The notes beneath the pieces are model-generated. The model was not told where the DNA came from, searched no databases, and saw nothing but the letters and a program-made list of their open reading frames with translations. Position numbers and translations under genes: made by a program. From Minwuiaceae bacterium (GTDB taxonomy: Bacteria; Pseudomonadota; Alphaproteobacteria; Minwuiales; Minwuiaceae), in assembly GCA_028278525.1 (NCBI GenBank), contig JANQEE010000033.1, forward strand, positions 1 through 64,000: a stretch of 64,000 bases of DNA. Reading direction: 5' to 3'. Positions 1 through 27,110 of the stretch are shown here, in pieces (position 1 is the first letter of the stretch; every line of letters starts with the position of its first letter).

Positions 1-62
1 CCCAACCACCCATACAGGGTACCCTCGGGGTGGTTGGGACGGGGGAGCGGGCCGGCTAGGCC
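1..62. repeat. Dispersed palindromic repeat, family A (cut by window edge)
   Basis: The first bases form an inverted repeat (CCCAACCACCC ... GGGTGGTTGGG around a GGTACC centre) followed by a flank rich in GGGGGAGCGGGCCGGCT. The core recurs in reverse orientation at 23887-23961, and the right-flank type recurs at 24845 and 27017. It sits just past the 3' end of the porin-like gene, so it could end transcription, but there is no T-run. The left arm is lost at the window edge. Confidence 0.7.
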
Positions 63-5771: not shown

Positions 5772-5830
5772 CGCGGCCCGTTTGAAAAAGGCGCTGGAGC
5801 CCTGCGTCCGCCCGAGCCTCACCCGCCGCC

Positions 5831-5915
5831 GTCATTGCGAGCGAAGCGAAGCAATCTCGACGGGCCTCGCACCCTTTTCACGAGATCGCCGCGGCGCTTC
5901 GCGCCTCGCGATGAC
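5831..5915. repeat. Palindromic repeat, family GTCATTGCGAGC
   Basis: Two arms, GTCATTGCGAGCGAAGCGAA on the left and a near-inverse ending CGCGCCTCGCGATGAC on the right, enclose a spacer of about 30 bases. A second copy lies at 18361-18445. This family is widespread in alphaproteobacterial genomes. It is the main content of the 424-base gap between the oxygenase gene and the LysR gene. Confidence 0.85.
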
Positions 5916-5954
5916 AGCCGGGCTTGGGTAGGGCAGCGTCGGCGGCACCATGGG

Positions 5955-9918: not shown

Positions 9919-10190
9919 GTCCGGTTAAGGGCGAGGTCGCGTGTTTTGAGTTCGACCGGAGCGTCTGGCGCACAGCCCTCGCCCCCTTGATGGGGGAGAG
10001 GGTTGGGTGAGGGGGTGTTCCCGCTCCGAGATCGACGATGTCCAAACCGGTCCGTATCCGATGTCTGGCCCGGCACTTAGGCTCTTCCGGCAAGGGCGAC
10101 ACACATCGTCAAGACCCCCCTCACCCTGACCTCTCCCCCCGCAAGCAGGGGGAGAGGGGTTCAAGGAATTGCTTCATCATCTCAACCGGG
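9919..10190. repeat. MITE-like composite repeat, copy 1
   Basis: Two C/G-rich hairpins in inverted orientation frame a spacer. The left one (9976-10014) is CCCTCGCCCCCTTGATGGGG and its inverse. The right one (10114-10161) is CCCCTCACCCTGACCTCTCC and its inverse. The left outer edge carries GTCCGGTTAAGG, exactly the inverse of CCTTAACCGGAC at the right edge of copy 2 (18765-18776). It fills the gap between the symporter and PPOX genes. Confidence 0.75.
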
Positions 10191-10251
10191 CAGCAGTGGC
10201 ATGGACCTGCCCGTCGCGCTTGATTACGCTCCACGCCAAAGGAGCGAACAT

Positions 10252-18205: not shown

Positions 18206-18272
18206 GTCATTCCGGCGGAGGCCGGAATCCAGAATGACCGCTGTCCTGGATTCCGGCCTCCGCCGGAATGAC
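18206..18272. repeat. Palindromic repeat, family GTCATTCCGGCGG (FRRRPES element), copy 1
   Basis: The arms GTCATTCCGGCGGAGGCCGG and its inverse, ending CGCCGGAATGAC, enclose a short spacer. It starts 11 bases after the selenoprotein stop. A second copy lies at 35819-35886. This family is widespread in alphaproteobacteria and is recognised by the translated string FRRRPES. Confidence 0.85.
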
Positions 18273-18297
18273 TATGGTGGCTGCGGCGTCTCATCCG

Positions 18298-18330
18298 TCA
18301 TCCTCGGACTTGATCCGAGGGTCCATGCTT
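18298..18330. repeat. CTCGGACTTGATCCGAG palindrome, third copy
   Basis: The sequence has a CCTCGGACTTGATCCGAGG core with a TCCATGC tail, matching the copy at 6011-6045. It is one of several repeat families packed behind the selenoprotein gene. Confidence 0.8.
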
Positions 18331-18360
18331 CCGCGCGCACGGTCCTCACCGCTCACGGCA

Positions 18361-18445
18361 GTCATTGCGAGCGAAGCGAAGCAATCTCGATCGGCCACGC
18401 CCCGCCTTCCCGAGATCGCCACGGCGCTCCGCGCCTCGCGATGAC
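18361..18445. repeat. Palindromic repeat, family GTCATTGCGAGC, second copy
   Basis: The left arm GTCATTGCGAGCGAAGCGAA is identical to 5831-5850 and the right arm ends CGCGCCTCGCGATGAC. The spacer differs from the first copy. A CTGTCGAAG-type fragment follows at about 18463-18496. Confidence 0.85.
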
Positions 18446-18544
18446 GGCTTGGATGGCTAAACCTGTCGAAGCCTCATCCTGAGCCTGTCGAAGGAACCCC
18501 CATGCCCGTCCTCATCGTCGCCCAGACGATCTCCTGAATTGACC

Positions 18545-18776
18545 GCCGTCCGGCATTTAGCCCTCGCCCCCTTGATGGGGGAGAGGGTTGGGTGAGGGGG
18601 TGTTCCGCTCCGGGATCGACGATGTCCGAGGCAGCCCAGGCCTAGCGTTCGGCTGAGCCTTTATGCCTCTCCGGCAATGGCGGTACACAACGTCAACACC
18701 CCCCTCACCCTAACCTCTCCCCCCGCAAGCTTGGGGAGAGGGGTTTGAAGTGGCGCTTTATCACCTTAACCGGACA
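18545..18776. repeat. MITE-like composite repeat, copy 2
   Basis: It has the same order as 9919-10190: a hairpin CCCTCGCCCCCTTGATGGGG (from 18560), the shared spacer words GATCGACGATGTCC and CTCTCCGGCAATGGCGG-like, and a second hairpin CCCCTCACCCTAACCTCTCC (18699-18743). The right end CCTTAACCGGAC is the exact inverse of the left end of copy 1, supporting terminal inverted repeats. Confidence 0.75.
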
Positions 18777-18808
18777 ACTGCGGCAGCGGCCGAAATGTCA
18801 CGCAGCGG

Positions 18809-19924: not shown

Positions 19925-22900
19925 CTAGTCGCTACCCTCGCCTGGGTCTGTCGAAGAACGCTTACTTACCTCATCATGTTCAATAAGCCGCTTCAATCCT
20001 GACTTGTCGATGTGCACGTTCAGCGGCCTCATCAATTGTTCAGCAGCGTCCAGAAGAGCTAAACGGTTTTCAGATTGCCAGTGACTCCAATATACCCGGG
20101 TTAGGAAGTGTGTAGTCAGAGCTACTCTAAGAAATGGCGCCCTAGGGAGTTCTGCAATAGCTTTGCTAAGTTCCTTTCGGCCTCGCTTGCTATCCAAATC
20201 TGTAAGCCAAGCTGCACAGATTACGCGCTCAAGTTCCCCGTCAATCTTGGCTTCTGATATGCTTTTGGCTAGAACCTTGTGCCTCGCTTGCTCGGATAGA
20301 AAGTGTATTGTCTTACGTATTGGCTCAGCGAGCACAGTCATTTCAAGCGCTTCCACCATTGTGCCTACAAACTTTCTGGTTTTTTCTACGTCCTCGTCAA
20401 TCCCCACTTTTTTGATAAACGAATCGATTGCATCATCGCTTGTCAGTTCTTGTTTTACTTCAGAAAAATCTACAGAAGTATGAATTCGAGTCCATTGGTC
20501 TACAAAAAGAGCCGCAAGTTGCACTAGCAGGCTAGAAAGTTCTCTTTTAGTTTCCGCGTCTAAGTGCTCAGCGCCAGAGCCAAGCAAAACTGCACCGATT
20601 GCCCAAACATGAACCGAAAACTCGATTCGTTCTTGGTCGGCTTGGCCGTCATTCGGTTCCCTGTCTTTTATTTGCTCCGTTTGAATTGCGGTGCTCTCTC
20701 GGACTTGGTCCGCTAAATCCAAAAGACGTTGCTTCTCCTCCTTGTTTCCGCTGTTGCTTCGGACGTCTTCGATGGCCTTATATAATTGCTTGGTTAAGGT
20801 GCGTAGGCGGTCTTGTTTGGCGAGCATGGTCGGTTGCACTTCGCCGGTAAGCAGTATGTGGGTCTGGTTACCCGTTGCTTGAAGCTCAGCCACACATGAC
20901 CTCAGCGCTTTAATAGTGTTTTCAACAAGCTTTTTCGAGGCGCCGATCTCAGCATACAAATCGAAAGTGCCAAGATCGAAATGCTGCTCTTCGATGCGAA
21001 AGTAATTTAGTGCGCGCGGCTCGTCGTCCGACAGTTCACTGGCTAAGAGGTAGGATTCGATAAATGGAAGTGATATTTTAACAGTATCCTCTTGGAAATG
21101 GATTAGGCCTTTATCTGAGAATGACTGGAGAAAAGAAATAGGATCAATCTCGAAGTCGAATTCTTTTGAGAAGGAATTTGTAAAGGCTACTAGTTCTTCT
21201 TGGTTGAAGGACTGTTTCTCAAGATTGATGGCAACCGTTAGTCTTTTTAGAAACCTAGATCGGGTTGTTCGGCTCAGTGTAATGTCGGCCGTATCGTCAG
21301 CAACTACGAATGTAAGAAAACCATCAACTGCTAATTGGATGAGTTCTGCGCGGCGATTCGCTTGCAGTAGCGCTGAAAGCGTCTCTCGCGGAATTCCTGC
21401 AAAGTAAGTTGGATGAGCTGGCAGGTCGAATTTTGTGAATGTTTCTTTGAGTCTGAGCGCGACCACCTCTGACTCAGTTTCGGTCATCTTAAAGTTTTTT
21501 TGCACGAAATGAGAAATTTCGACAAATGAGACCTCGCAAATGTCATAGACGCTGGCCGAAGTTTCACTGACAAAATCGCTCTCGAATTTGATGTTTACAT
21601 CTGATCGATCGATGAATATGAATTGCGCTTTTTTAAATGAGCGCGTTTGTTCTATAAGAAATCTCAGCCTGCTTTTTGAATGAAATGGTATGTTTTCAAT
21701 TATGAGGACAAGCTGTGTTCCTTCCACATTTTCGATGGAACGTATTGAACGACCCGCATATCTTTCGAACCCAGATTTGGGGGGGCGGATTGCGCTTCCG
21801 TCGATTACGATTGGTAGGGCTTGTTTTCCTGATATCTCAGCGGTAAGCAGATCATCAGCTATTACCCAGGCTAGGCTCTGATCTGGATACGTGCGCGGAA
21901 TATTGAAGAGAAGTACTTGGTTCTGCCGTAACGCATCACGTACTTCAATAGGATGGGACTCGAAACTCTCTCCAATATAGTTTTGATAGTCAATTGGCCG
22001 AACTCGAGGGATTGGCAGGCGATATCCGGTAGGCTGCAACCGGAATTCAGGAGAGAGTTCTCGAAGCTTTTGGTCAACATCTAACCCAAGCTCACCAAGA
22101 ACTACAGACACATCGTCGATTGCTAGCGGAAAGATCTCGAGCTGATCAGATTGACCACTATGGTTCTTGTCTCTGAGCCGTATCAGTGCGTTTACGAAGC
22201 GGTCATTACTTAACTGGAGTTTTAGAAATGTTGCTGCGTTTGCGGCGGCAACGCGCCGCACTGCGCCGAGGCTATCGTCTTCGAGAGATGTCTTTCCCTC
22301 ATCAGCGTAGTCGGATATGCCCCGGATCGTGAGAGCCGCTACTCCATTTGCCGTGGCCCGCTCAAAAACTCCGCCGGACTCGGTGTCTATTGCCAGTATC
22401 TTTCGATCTACTGCAAGAAGTTTCTTGTTGTATGCTTCGCTCTTGCTGACTGCACCGCAAACAATATTTCCGTGGATTGAACGGGGCTGCCCGATCTTCT
22501 CTTTCGTACTACTTCGCCCTTTGATCGCGGGAATGTTAAGGCCCTCGACAAAGGCCTCTTGCTCTCTTACCCAACTCCAATACAAGGGCTTCAAGTCTGG
22601 GATCGTTCTTATAAAATTAAAGGCGGCAGTAATATCCAAGTTTGTTTTATAATAACTTGGAGAAATTTCGATGACATAACCGTCATCGCTGTTATCTAGA
22701 GCTTTGGAGTTGTCAAGAACATCAATAATTGTTCCGCTATAGCAAACATCGCCAAGTTTTAGATCTTTAGAAATACCTCCTGCAATCCCAAGAGAGACCG
22801 CTAGTCCCACACCAAATTCGTCCAATATGCCAGAGGTAGATTTTACAGCAGACTTCTTGCCCATATCTTCTTGTTGAACAATAAGAGCATTCAATCCCGG

Positions 22901-23032
22901 AACTCCGGTTTGTACCGAATATCGAAATTCTGTTTCTGTGCTAAGGTCTTCCACCCCCTCAAATACATTCATAACCTCCTGAAGTTCTTCTTCAAGCGGT
23001 ACAATTACAACTAAGTCGAAGTATTCCGGCAT
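19925..23032 (-). CDS. Nucleoside-phosphorylase-fold/STAND-like protein (possible anti-phage effector)
   Basis: A 1035-residue protein from the ATG at 23032 (a TTG at 23095 would add 21). Residues about 1-285 form a PNP/UDP phosphorylase-like nucleosidase domain: FDLVVIVPLEEEL, VSLGIAGGI, DTESGGVFERA and RGISDYADEGK with the catalytic-type Asp. The rest looks like a STAND NTPase. VLLFNIPRTYPDQSLAW sits where a Walker A loop belongs but lacks GK[S/T]; LVLIIEN resembles Walker B and AQFIFIDRSD a sensor strand. A winged-helix-like region and a long helical C-terminus follow. Related fusions include fungal NLRs and bacterial Avs/Detocs-type defence proteins that cut ATP or other nucleotides. Its base composition is much AT-richer than the neighbours, indicating transfer. 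Confidence 0.75.
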   Translation of the reverse strand: MPEYFDLVVIVPLEEELQEVMNVFEGVEDLSTETEFRYSVQTGVPGLNALIVQQEDMGKKSAVKSTSGILDEFGVGLAVSLGIAGGISKDLKLGDVCYSGTIIDVLDNSKALDNSDDGYVIEISPSYYKTNLDITAAFNFIRTIPDLKPLYWSWVREQEAFVEGLNIPAIKGRSSTKEKIGQPRSIHGNIVCGAVSKSEAYNKKLLAVDRKILAIDTESGGVFERATANGVAALTIRGISDYADEGKTSLEDDSLGAVRRVAAANAATFLKLQLSNDRFVNALIRLRDKNHSGQSDQLEIFPLAIDDVSVVLGELGLDVDQKLRELSPEFRLQPTGYRLPIPRVRPIDYQNYIGESFESHPIEVRDALRQNQVLLFNIPRTYPDQSLAWVIADDLLTAEISGKQALPIVIDGSAIRPPKSGFERYAGRSIRSIENVEGTQLVLIIENIPFHSKSRLRFLIEQTRSFKKAQFIFIDRSDVNIKFESDFVSETSASVYDICEVSFVEISHFVQKNFKMTETESEVVALRLKETFTKFDLPAHPTYFAGIPRETLSALLQANRRAELIQLAVDGFLTFVVADDTADITLSRTTRSRFLKRLTVAINLEKQSFNQEELVAFTNSFSKEFDFEIDPISFLQSFSDKGLIHFQEDTVKISLPFIESYLLASELSDDEPRALNYFRIEEQHFDLGTFDLYAEIGASKKLVENTIKALRSCVAELQATGNQTHILLTGEVQPTMLAKQDRLRTLTKQLYKAIEDVRSNSGNKEEKQRLLDLADQVRESTAIQTEQIKDREPNDGQADQERIEFSVHVWAIGAVLLGSGAEHLDAETKRELSSLLVQLAALFVDQWTRIHTSVDFSEVKQELTSDDAIDSFIKKVGIDEDVEKTRKFVGTMVEALEMTVLAEPIRKTIHFLSEQARHKVLAKSISEAKIDGELERVICAAWLTDLDSKRGRKELSKAIAELPRAPFLRVALTTHFLTRVYWSHWQSENRLALLDAAEQLMRPLNVHIDKSGLKRLIEHDEVSKRSSTDPGEGSD

Positions 23033-23552
23033 TTTATTTATCCAAGGGCTTGTGATGCGATCTGCAATTGAACAATCTTGTGCACTCTTAGTCAATTTAG
23101 TTGTAGAAGTGTTATGTACGCAATAGAGATTTAGCGACGACTGTTTGGAATCGCATGAGAAAATCGTCGAGCCAAAAATAGAGATAGATTGAAAGATTAG
23201 GCAGTTTTTTAGCCTAGACTCTAGAAAAATGATAAAGATTATTTCTGAGAATCACATTTGAAATATCACTCGCACATATTTGAGATCTAACCAAGTGATT
23301 TTGAATGCGCTATTAGGTTTCTGGTCATCCTGGGCTGAAGCCTTGCGTGATCATATTGTTTAATTTCTTAGCCCGCGTCCGGCCTGTCTGAATTGGACTG
23401 CCGTGACGCAAAGACAGTTCAACTTGCATGGAAGTAAGGAGTAGCCCGACACAGGACTCTTCGAAACGCAAATCTGCCTGCTCCCCTCAACCCTTTCTTG
23501 ACGCTTTCCCCCCACCGTTCTTGCCAGGAGAGGCAATAAACGGAACGGTGCG
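23033..23552. other. AT-rich noncoding stretch upstream of the STAND-like gene
   Basis: These 520 bases hold no convincing gene. They stay AT-rich to about 23350, matching the STAND-like gene, then return to high GC, so the inserted segment probably ends near 23350-23400. A small hairpin (TAGGC/GCCTA, 23198-23216) is present. The promoter of the STAND-like gene must lie here. I could not find direct repeats marking the junctions. Confidence 0.5.
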
Positions 23553-23879
23553 ATGACGGATATCGTTAGCGATGAAGTAACCAAGCCGAACCAGGCGCGG
23601 GCCACGGTGGCCCTGCTGGCCGGGTTGGTGCCGACCGTGTTCCTGTTGGTCAATCCTTTCGCCGGCGGCGAGGGGGCCTGTGTCTGGGTCTGCGCCGCCG
23701 CCATGCTGGCGGCGCTGGTCGGCCCGTGGGCCGGCCTGTTTCTCACCTGGGGCGCGTTCAAGGCCTGGCGCGGGCGCGGGGCCGGGCGGCCCGACTACGG
23801 GGCCGCGGTCTTCGCCGCCGTCGCCCTCATGCTCGCCTTCAATGCCGTCTCGATCCTGAAAGGGTATATTTTGGCGTGA
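23553..23879 (+). CDS. Small membrane protein of unknown function
   Basis: A 108-residue protein with three hydrophobic spans: TVALLAGLVPTVFLLVNPF, CVWVCAAAMLAALVGPWAGLF and GAAVFAAVALMLAFNAVSIL. A basic loop (WRGRGAGR) precedes the last span. No family is recognised. It returns to the high-GC composition of the chromosome, beyond the AT-rich segment. Its stop is followed after 7 bases by a large palindrome. Confidence 0.65.
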   Translation: MTDIVSDEVTKPNQARATVALLAGLVPTVFLLVNPFAGGEGACVWVCAAAMLAALVGPWAGLFLTWGAFKAWRGRGAGRPDYGAAVFAAVALMLAFNAVSILKGYILA

Positions 23880-23886
23880 CGCGCCA

Positions 23887-23961
23887 AGCCGGCCCGTTCC
23901 CCCGTCCCAACACCCCGAGGGTACCCTGTATGGGTGGTTGGGACGGGGGAGCGGGCCGGCT
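23887..23961. repeat. 75-base near-perfect palindrome, repeat family A
   Basis: The 30-base arms (AGCCGGCCCGTTCCCCCGTC... and its inverse) surround a 15-base centre with GGTACC. The arms differ by about three positions. The centre is in reverse orientation relative to the copy at 1-62. It lies between two convergent genes, so it may form a strong bidirectional hairpin. A tail GCAACAGAGGAATCCCGGGT follows, seen also in the copies at 24845 and 27017. Confidence 0.8.
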
Positions 23962-24031
23962 CGGCTGCAACAGAGGAATCCCGGGTCAGCGCAGGGTGGT
24001 AAAGCCATCCAAACAAAGGACTCCCGACCGC

Positions 24032-24700
24032 TCAGTTCGTCGCCGGCAGCCCCTTTGTCGCCGCGGTTTCGCTGGAATAGATGAACGGCGGCACCTCGGC
24101 GTCCAGGTCCAGCGTCACCACGTCCTTCTCCGCCAGTTCCGGGAACTTCGCCTTCAGCAACGGCAGGTCGCGCCCGAGGTTATAGCGGTGGACGAAGTGG
24201 CCGCCGGCCGGAATGGTGATGCCGAAAATGTTCTTGCCCCAGTACCCTCGCGCCAGGAAGTCGCCAATGTAGTAGGCCTTGCCCGCCTCCATCGAGAACG
24301 GCACCGAGAAGTCCTCCTTCGCCTCCCACGATTTCTCGACTTGCCCGTTGTTGTAATAGAAATGCACGTTGACCAGTTCGTACTCGCCGGGTTGCAGTGG
24401 CAGCGCAAACATCCTGCCCTTGCGGCCCGGTTCCTCGTAGTGGATCTCGACCGGGAACATCCAACTCTGGCTCATGACGATGTCGCCCCGATGTTCGACG
24501 CCCTTTCGCCGATAGATCAACCTGCTGAAGTTGTTGACCGACTTGTGCTCGCCACTGCTCCGGAACCCGATGCTGCCGATCAGATAGGCGGCGTCTTCGG
24601 GCGCGGCGGCGTAGCTCTCGGGTACACGGTGTTCCCCGGGATGGGCGCAGGCGCCCAGAGCCAGTGTAACGATCAGTAGACATATGACCTTCAGTTTCAT
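24032..24700 (-). CDS. Lipoprotein of unknown function (DUF2846-like)
   Basis: A 222-residue protein with a lipoprotein signal (ICLLIVTLALGAC, Cys at residue 18). The body resembles small DUF2846-type lipoproteins: an LQPGEYELVNVHFYY strand, then FSVPFSMEAGKAYYIGDFLA. These features suggest a beta-sandwich on the periplasmic face of a membrane. It is convergent with the small membrane-protein gene and stands alone. No function can be given. Confidence 0.72.
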   Translation of the reverse strand: MKLKVICLLIVTLALGACAHPGEHRVPESYAAAPEDAAYLIGSIGFRSSGEHKSVNNFSRLIYRRKGVEHRGDIVMSQSWMFPVEIHYEEPGRKGRMFALPLQPGEYELVNVHFYYNNGQVEKSWEAKEDFSVPFSMEAGKAYYIGDFLARGYWGKNIFGITIPAGGHFVHRYNLGRDLPLLKAKFPELAEKDVVTLDLDAEVPPFIYSSETAATKGLPATN

Positions 24701-24844
24701 CGTGATCCCACCCTGTCGAACATGGCCGTTCTTGCCCCCAGACCTTTATAACCGGCCTCGCAGCCGGCGCAACGGCCGATAGAATTTTGCGCGCCGACCT
24801 TACATCGTGCGGCGCAACCGCTCGGTGCGCTTACACAAAGACTC

Positions 24845-24960
24845 ATGGGTGGTCGGGTGGGGGAGAGGGCCGGCCAGGCCCTAAAAAAGGAATCCGGGTG
24901 GGGGCGAGGGATGGAACAGCCCTCAAACAGAGGAACCCCGGGTGGGGGCTTGCCGGGCCG
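24845..24960. repeat. Repeat family A fragments in tandem
   Basis: The right-arm type GGGTGGTCGGGTGGGGGAGA with GGGCCGGCCAGGCCCT is followed by AGGAATCCGGGTGGGGGCGA and, about 35 bases on, CTCAAACAGAGGAACCCCGG. The same words in the same order occur at 27017-27110. It is the main content of the 359-base gap 24701-25059. Confidence 0.75.
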
Positions 24961-26973: not shown

Positions 26974-27016
26974 GGTACACCGCAAGGCCCGCCGACGCGG
27001 TCGCCCCAAAAGATTC

Positions 27017-27110
27017 CTGGGTGGTCGGGTGGGGGAGAGGGCCGGCCAGGCCCTCAAACAGAGGAATCCGGGTGGGGGCGACGGCCGGCTAGGCCCAATA
27101 CAGGAATCCT
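27017..27110. repeat. Repeat family A, fourth location
   Basis: GGGTGGTCGGGTGGGGGAGA, GGGCCGGCCAGGCCCTCAAA and CAGAGGAATCCGGGTGGGGG occur in the same order as at 24845, followed by a second partial unit CGGCCGGCTAGGCCC, the same words as at window positions 48-62. It ends just before the stop of the SnoaL-like gene. Confidence 0.75.

Follow-up and report, generated by a model that had tools for sequence, protein, structure and literature searches.

A dispersed REP/REPIN-like palindrome of Alphaproteobacteria with an apparently invertible centre

Results and discussion

The palindrome described here, termed P, lies in a 64,000-nucleotide stretch of a Minwuiaceae genome (the window) and belongs to a dispersed family that resembles REP and REPIN elements. 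The two arms of a P copy co-vary beyond chance and, as judged from two related genomes, the centre between them has probably been turned round at some sites. We lean, with slightly better than even confidence, towards the reading that P is a dispersed intergenic REP/REPIN-like palindrome in which both the matching of the arms and the flips of the centre arise by template switching.

Anatomy of P in the window

The inverted repeat consisted of 34-nt arms (23883-23916 and 23932-23965) that were 88% complementary, and it was located between predicted genes ending at 23879 and 24032 (Table 1), which bears out the first-pass annotation of a near-perfect palindrome between convergent genes. The gene calls came from a codon-usage script, and neither of the two genes gave a Pfam or NCBIfam match at E ≤ 0.01. 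Compared with shuffled sequences, P folded with z of -6.9 as RNA and -9.7 as DNA. The P right arm had three matches in the window at ≤3 mismatches, with 0.00 expected. The usual layout of a copy is GCC-NN-GCCGGCCCGCTCCCCCGTCCCAACCACCC-centre-mirror image. The core AGGGTACCCT was present in most centres of the window's genome and varied in more distant relatives; because it is set off centre, the centre has a direction.

The window begins at base 1 of contig C14, so the P copy at its start is incomplete. The first-pass annotation had described it as a recurrence at 1-62 with the centre flipped, suggestive of inversion or of hairpin-mediated copying. A truncated reverse copy was indeed present at 1-61; however, symmetric arms make a centre "flipped" between two different sites the same thing as opposite orientation, which proves no inversion, and orthologous sites are therefore needed to show one. 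The arm-like pieces near 24845 and 27017 proved to be of the same family, but they were arm pieces in 41-43-nt tandem units, that is, single-arm relics and not palindromes.

Table 1. Features of P and its surroundings in the window.
Feature	Position	Strand	Remark
Full palindrome P, GCC-NN-arm-centre-arm-NN-GGC	23883..23965	.	here NN = AA / TC, unmatched
P left arm GCCGGCCCGTTCCCCCGTCCCAAC	23888..23911	-	
P right arm GGTTGGGACGGGGGAGCGGGCCGGC	23936..23960	+	
P centre	23912..23935	+	self-complementary core AGGGTACCCT at 23918-23927, off centre, short side left
Type A outer flank TGCAACAGAGGAATCC	23966..23981	+	flank itself repeated in the genome
Second P copy	1..61	-	reverse orientation, cut by contig start
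Two single-arm tandem relics, P family	24837..24947	+	
Two single-arm tandem relics, P family	27009..27104	+	
Predicted gene	23553..23879	+	ends 3 bp before P
Predicted convergent gene	24032..24700	-	ends 66 bp after P

Copies in the genome and in relatives

In the 5.95-Mb draft genome, the 21-nt P arm had 202 matches at ≤3 mismatches, compared to 3 for the reversed control, which corresponds to roughly 100 palindromes. We read 91 loci, mostly picked for holding an arm, in addition to the window, and found 61 full palindromes and 31 lone arms; the idea of a dispersed, many-copy REP-like palindrome was thereby confirmed. Many lone arms were cut by contig ends. At least 32 of the 142 contig ends lay within about 200 bp of a P arm, and the draft assembly therefore breaks at P. 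Seven of the 61 copies were ≤40 nt from a record end and three shared one flank, and a few of the 61 may represent one site assembled twice.

Of the 385 genomes of the class examined in a DNA search, 20 contained relatives of P (E ≤ 1e-4), distributed over 13 families. An exact pattern with 22 fixed bases occurred in 63 stretches of nine named assemblies, in a search that possibly left the window's genome outside; all nine were labelled as alphaproteobacterial groups (Hyphomicrobiales, Sphingomonadales and unplaced). The only Rfam matches were two microRNA families, scoring 34 and 22 bits against gathering scores of 79 and 80, respectively; at so far below gathering, we rejected them as chance hits to a long hairpin. 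Judged by title, none of the papers listed in literature searches dealt with the P sequence, and a search with arm strings returned none on bacterial repeats.

In many copies, among them those at L045, L032, L066 and L030, P was embedded in a larger unit, B-P-C, whose ends resembled terminal repeats (GAGTCTGTTC... / ...GGACAGACAC), and flank C contained a second hairpin (AAAATGCGTC-GACGCATTTT). Possible 3-bp TNA duplications around the unit were seen by eye in a few copies and were absent from others. As to the target-site duplication that accompanies the terminal repeats of a MITE, no clean one was readable at the six sites where only one of the related genomes G130 and G233 (see below) has P, and the flanking bases differed too.

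Co-variation of the two arms

In the window's genome, mismatches between the arms of one copy summed to 112 (the 59 of the 61 copies with enough flank), compared to a mean of 214 when the arms were re-dealt among copies, and none of 2000 shuffles was as low. The variable NN pair showed 32 mismatches against 81 re-dealt, and the two bases just outside GCCGGC, which vary freely among copies, had 16 mismatches at each base against ~40 expected. The corresponding arm totals were 150 against 310 in G233 (44 of 45 copies) and 137 against 368 in G130 (51 copies), two genomes in which the detector itself accepted a copy only if 20 or more of 28 arm positions matched and so favoured matched arms. For the bases just outside the arms the effect was weak in the window's genome (12 of 2000 shuffles as low) and absent in G233 (131 of 2000) and G130 (1238 of 2000).

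In six orthologous pairs, picked from the 18 described below, we counted arm positions changed in both arms and in one arm only. The counts (both/one) were 1/0 at the first L265/L274 site, 2/0 at L248/L202, 4/1 at L261/L207, 2/1 at L191/L205, 0/2 at L255/L272 and 0/0 at the second L265/L274 site. Matching of the arms, taken alone, can also be produced by selection on the hairpin.

Orientation of the centre at orthologous sites

G130 and G233 belong to one genus and yielded 51 and 45 distinct palindromes, respectively; of the two, G233 is a MAG in fragments, with a contamination of 10%. At 27 sites the genomes could be matched on both flanks: 18 of these held P in both genomes, six in one only, one was decayed (a P remnant at L251/L274) and two, L203 and L214:18923, with gaps longer than 420 bp, were left unaligned. 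Several shared copies were damaged in one genome. Among the 18 shared sites, the centre pointed in the same direction at seven, was flipped at five and was undecidable at six. An earlier scoring of 13 sites had given five same, six flipped and two unclear, with L248/L202 as flipped; the 18-site scoring, used here, places that pair among the undecidable ones.

The best flip was that of L265:3232/L274:9995, where the arms were identical at 62 of 64 positions (rank 1 of 49), the centre was reversed and the flanks were conserved over the 90 bp inspected to the left and to the right. When 50 bp of outer flank was counted in, the pair matched at 113 of 136 positions and the best other copy at 84, so the two are clearly orthologous. 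The runner-up (61/64 in the arms when reversed) was a G130 copy 0.7 kb away in opposite orientation, whose centre differed by two bases from the flipped L265/L274 centre. Because so similar a copy is so near, local exchange is possible at this site. We must also note that pairs of P 0.7 kb apart, with near-identical arms and opposite orientation, were observed in both genomes (L274:9983/10693 and L265:3220/3928).

The other pairs read as flipped were L191/L205, L261/L207, L253/L212 and L195/L217, in which arms or centre had diverged. By arm similarity the orthologs ranked 11 of 49 at L191/L205 and 30 of 49 at L261/L207, which is no nearer than copies taken at random. For L253/L212 the centre, once reversed, was nearly identical (26.0 vs 13.5), a score that 16% of other copies also reach. 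Every flip thus carries some doubt. An error of assembly is an unlikely source if the label k99 in the sequence records of both genomes gives the assembler's word length, as is the naming habit, since that length exceeds the roughly 75-nt element. The earlier suggestion that flips point to inversion stands in part, since the centre was found in both directions at orthologous sites (5 of the 12 decidable), although exchange is possible at the best of them.

Orientation was also mixed within single genomes. Thirteen copies of the window's genome were located between the asymmetric flanks B and C; in seven of them the centre turned its short side to B and in six to C. Relative to gene direction, the two orientations were about equally frequent, with 10 and 10 copies for the window's genome, 13 and 7 for G233, and 12 and 11 for G130.

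Two further observations concern the surroundings of P in this genus. At L179:2897/L282:8768, the G233 copy was directly upstream of a gene that by eye resembled a selenocysteine tRNA, and the G130 site was without P. P in both genomes was often flanked by the repeat GGATSWACCCCATGCRCCCATCTTTTT (L199, L202, L261, L264, L268, L287); at L199 this repeat was present on both sides, and G233 had no P there.

Position relative to genes

None of the 61 copies in the window's genome was inside a gene, five overlapped a predicted gene and 12 were at record edges; in G130, one of 49 copies was inside a gene and two were overlapping. Within 30 bp of P we found 36 of 52 adjacent gene 3' ends vs 2 of 36 gene 5' ends in the window's genome, and 83 of 130 vs 20 of 132 in the three genomes together, with median distances to gene 3' ends of 15.5-22 bp. 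In the window's genome 16 of 44 classifiable copies lay between convergent genes, compared to 11 of 112 other gaps of at least 60 bp. Closeness to gene 3' ends held in G130 and G233; the convergent excess was absent there. Outer flanks other than types A, B and C were A-rich at 13-18 nt outward of P. The flank was A-rich after and T-rich before the hairpin, the opposite of what suits an intrinsic terminator; no T-run followed the stem, and a terminator scan predicted no terminator at P. From its position, the P hairpin may protect or bound mRNA 3' ends.

Comparison with REP and REPIN elements and search for a RAYT

REP and BIME elements, with their GTAG- and CGTC-tagged families, are many intergenic palindromes, often arranged as inverted pairs and mostly downstream of genes (PMC3733652). 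P is like them in being high-copy, palindromic, intergenic and mostly downstream of genes, but unlike them it forms a single palindrome, whose arms measure about 25-34 bp and whose core lies off centre. The CGTC families are the commonest in Alphaproteobacteria and have no dedicated transposase (PMC3733652). By eye, a terminal GTAG or CGTC tag was not conserved in P, which ends in GCC-NN with NN variable, and the CGTC inside the P arm was not conserved in G130 and G233. Like REPINs (PMC3116915), P is a doublet in inverted arrangement, about 70-80 bp long, and folds as a single hairpin, but no RAYT gene was directly flanked by P, and the local RAYT has its own repeat. Since neither a tag nor linkage to a RAYT was found, we do not file P as a tagged REP or as a RAYT-mobilised REPIN. 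Rhizobium intergenic mosaic elements, which are mosaic palindromic intergenic repeats of Alphaproteobacteria, may be likened to P by this description.

The window's genome contained one Y1 transposase gene, of RAYT type, at the start of contig C57. The gene piece scored 71.4 bits with NCBIfam REP_Tyr_transpos (cut-off 80), and its frame, read by hand, offered no usual start codon before its conserved N-terminal part. The gene and its own small palindrome family, AAAAAGGGGACATTC..., lay at L031:1-67 and L031:88-783. The palindrome beside it, AAAAAGGGGACATTCATCTTTTT, was of a different family with 12 arm hits at about seven places, and the first 20 kb of the gene's contig (L083) held no P. We read 20 further Y1 neighbourhoods, 18 in P-positive and two in P-negative genomes. 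In P-bearing genomes, none of the 19 Y1 loci (18 elsewhere and the window genome's own) was directly beside P, although at five of them, near contig starts, part of one flank was missing; the nearest P was about 0.7 kb away, at L159. Ten of the 18 other loci had some other inverted repeat of at least 9 bp within 700 bp, the longest (17-29 bp) being at L162, L164, L168 and L171. In terms of co-occurrence, Y1 hits at E ≤ 0.001 were found in 10 of 20 P-positive genomes, and were absent from the other ten, vs 63 of 365 other genomes (Fisher p 0.001, uncorrected for genome size). The earlier advice to count copies and look for a RAYT gene thus turned up many copies and one RAYT, but no link between them.

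Proposed mechanism and alternative explanations

We propose that, at a replication fork that reaches the palindrome, the polymerase may switch template between the arms. One arm would then be copied from the other, which would keep the arms matched, and a switch across the centre would turn it round in place. Arm homogenisation together with inversion of the spacer or loop is the published signature of template switching (PMC8604942, PMC8794818). P resembles such inverted repeats in that its arms are homogenised within a copy, and the apparent inversion of its centre would correspond to theirs; the reported cases are from yeast coding genes, rRNA and microRNA hairpins (PMC8604942, PMC8794818), and we now suggest the process for a repeat that is bacterial and dispersed and has a centre of about 16 nt.

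Template switching is most likely the cause of the pattern within sites, with exchange between copies as its main rival. In that case the centre would not turn in place; different copies would exchange sequence or undergo gene conversion, or P would insert repeatedly at preferred sites. We consider this unlikely but a serious contender: near-identical arms are common to many copies, the arms at several shared sites resemble each other no more than those of copies taken at random, 6 of the 27 sites have P in only one of G130 and G233, and the 0.7-kb neighbour could have been the donor at L265/L274. On the other hand, the flipped L265/L274 centre is two bases off that of the neighbour and the site-specific flanks were kept, and the near-identity of the reversed L253/L212 centre also speaks against exchange, tempered by the other copies that score equally. 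A dedicated site-specific recombinase that inverts the centre, making P an array of small invertible switches, appears very improbable. The about equal frequency of both directions and the self-complementary core in most centres of the window's genome would suit such an enzyme; P is, however, spread over 13 families, and we know of no enzyme common to them.

Two other explanations account for P by its mobility or by its RNA. If P were a REPIN, with a RAYT tyrosine transposase moving the doublet via a single-stranded hairpin, opposite orientations would be insertions made either way. Its anatomy (an inverted pair of about 75 bp, forming a hairpin), its high intergenic copy number with direct tandem half-units, the RAYT-type gene of the window's genome and the excess of Y1 hits in P-positive genomes, including all five with the closest P relatives (best E <1e-20; G000, G009, G130, G233 and G364), agree with this. 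Nevertheless, the genome's RAYT gene adjoins its own palindrome, the Y1 loci read in P-bearing genomes did not adjoin P, half of the P-positive genomes lacked a Y1 hit, and the co-occurrence is not corrected for genome size, though five of the 19 Y1 genes lay near contig starts. We therefore find the RAYT mobilisation put forward in the first-pass annotation improbable. Still more doubtful is that P works as an intrinsic terminator of transcription in both directions, maintained through selection on the RNA hairpin. The proximity to gene 3' ends in three genomes and the convergent excess in the window's genome are in its favour, but that excess was missing from G130 and G233, the scan predicted none at P, and the missing T-run speaks against an intrinsic terminator. 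Moreover, selection on an RNA hairpin alone would keep the arms matched and would not explain the flips.

Template switching, the preferred explanation, can be extended to a bolder and more tentative picture, possible though not probable in our view: the ~100 palindromes per genome would be in-place flip-flops, with orientation at or near equilibrium within a genus, that record template-switch inversion and may even be the substrate of an unknown inverting enzyme. If that were true, the P family would be a ready-made genome-wide record of template-switch inversion. Should the flips occur in place, every P copy would be a scoreable mark of template switching between ~30-bp arms, and its rate could be derived from collections of strains for each genome position, direction of replication and repair genotype. 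It would also follow that copying can produce the matched stems of REP-like elements, which then would not have to imply selection for an RNA hairpin.

Other features of the window

On the minus strand, 19925-23095 encodes a 1056-aa protein with a phosphorylase-superfamily domain that the codon-usage gene caller missed; it also matched a STAND NTPase below the cut-off and, weakly, a family of anti-phage proteins. Further dispersed repeat families were located at 5828-5918, 9962-10201, 18206-18289, 18296-18448 and 18547-18785, some of which resemble CGTC-type REPs (GTCATTCCGGCGGAGGCCGGAATCC, GTCATTGCGAGCGAAGCGAAGCAATC).
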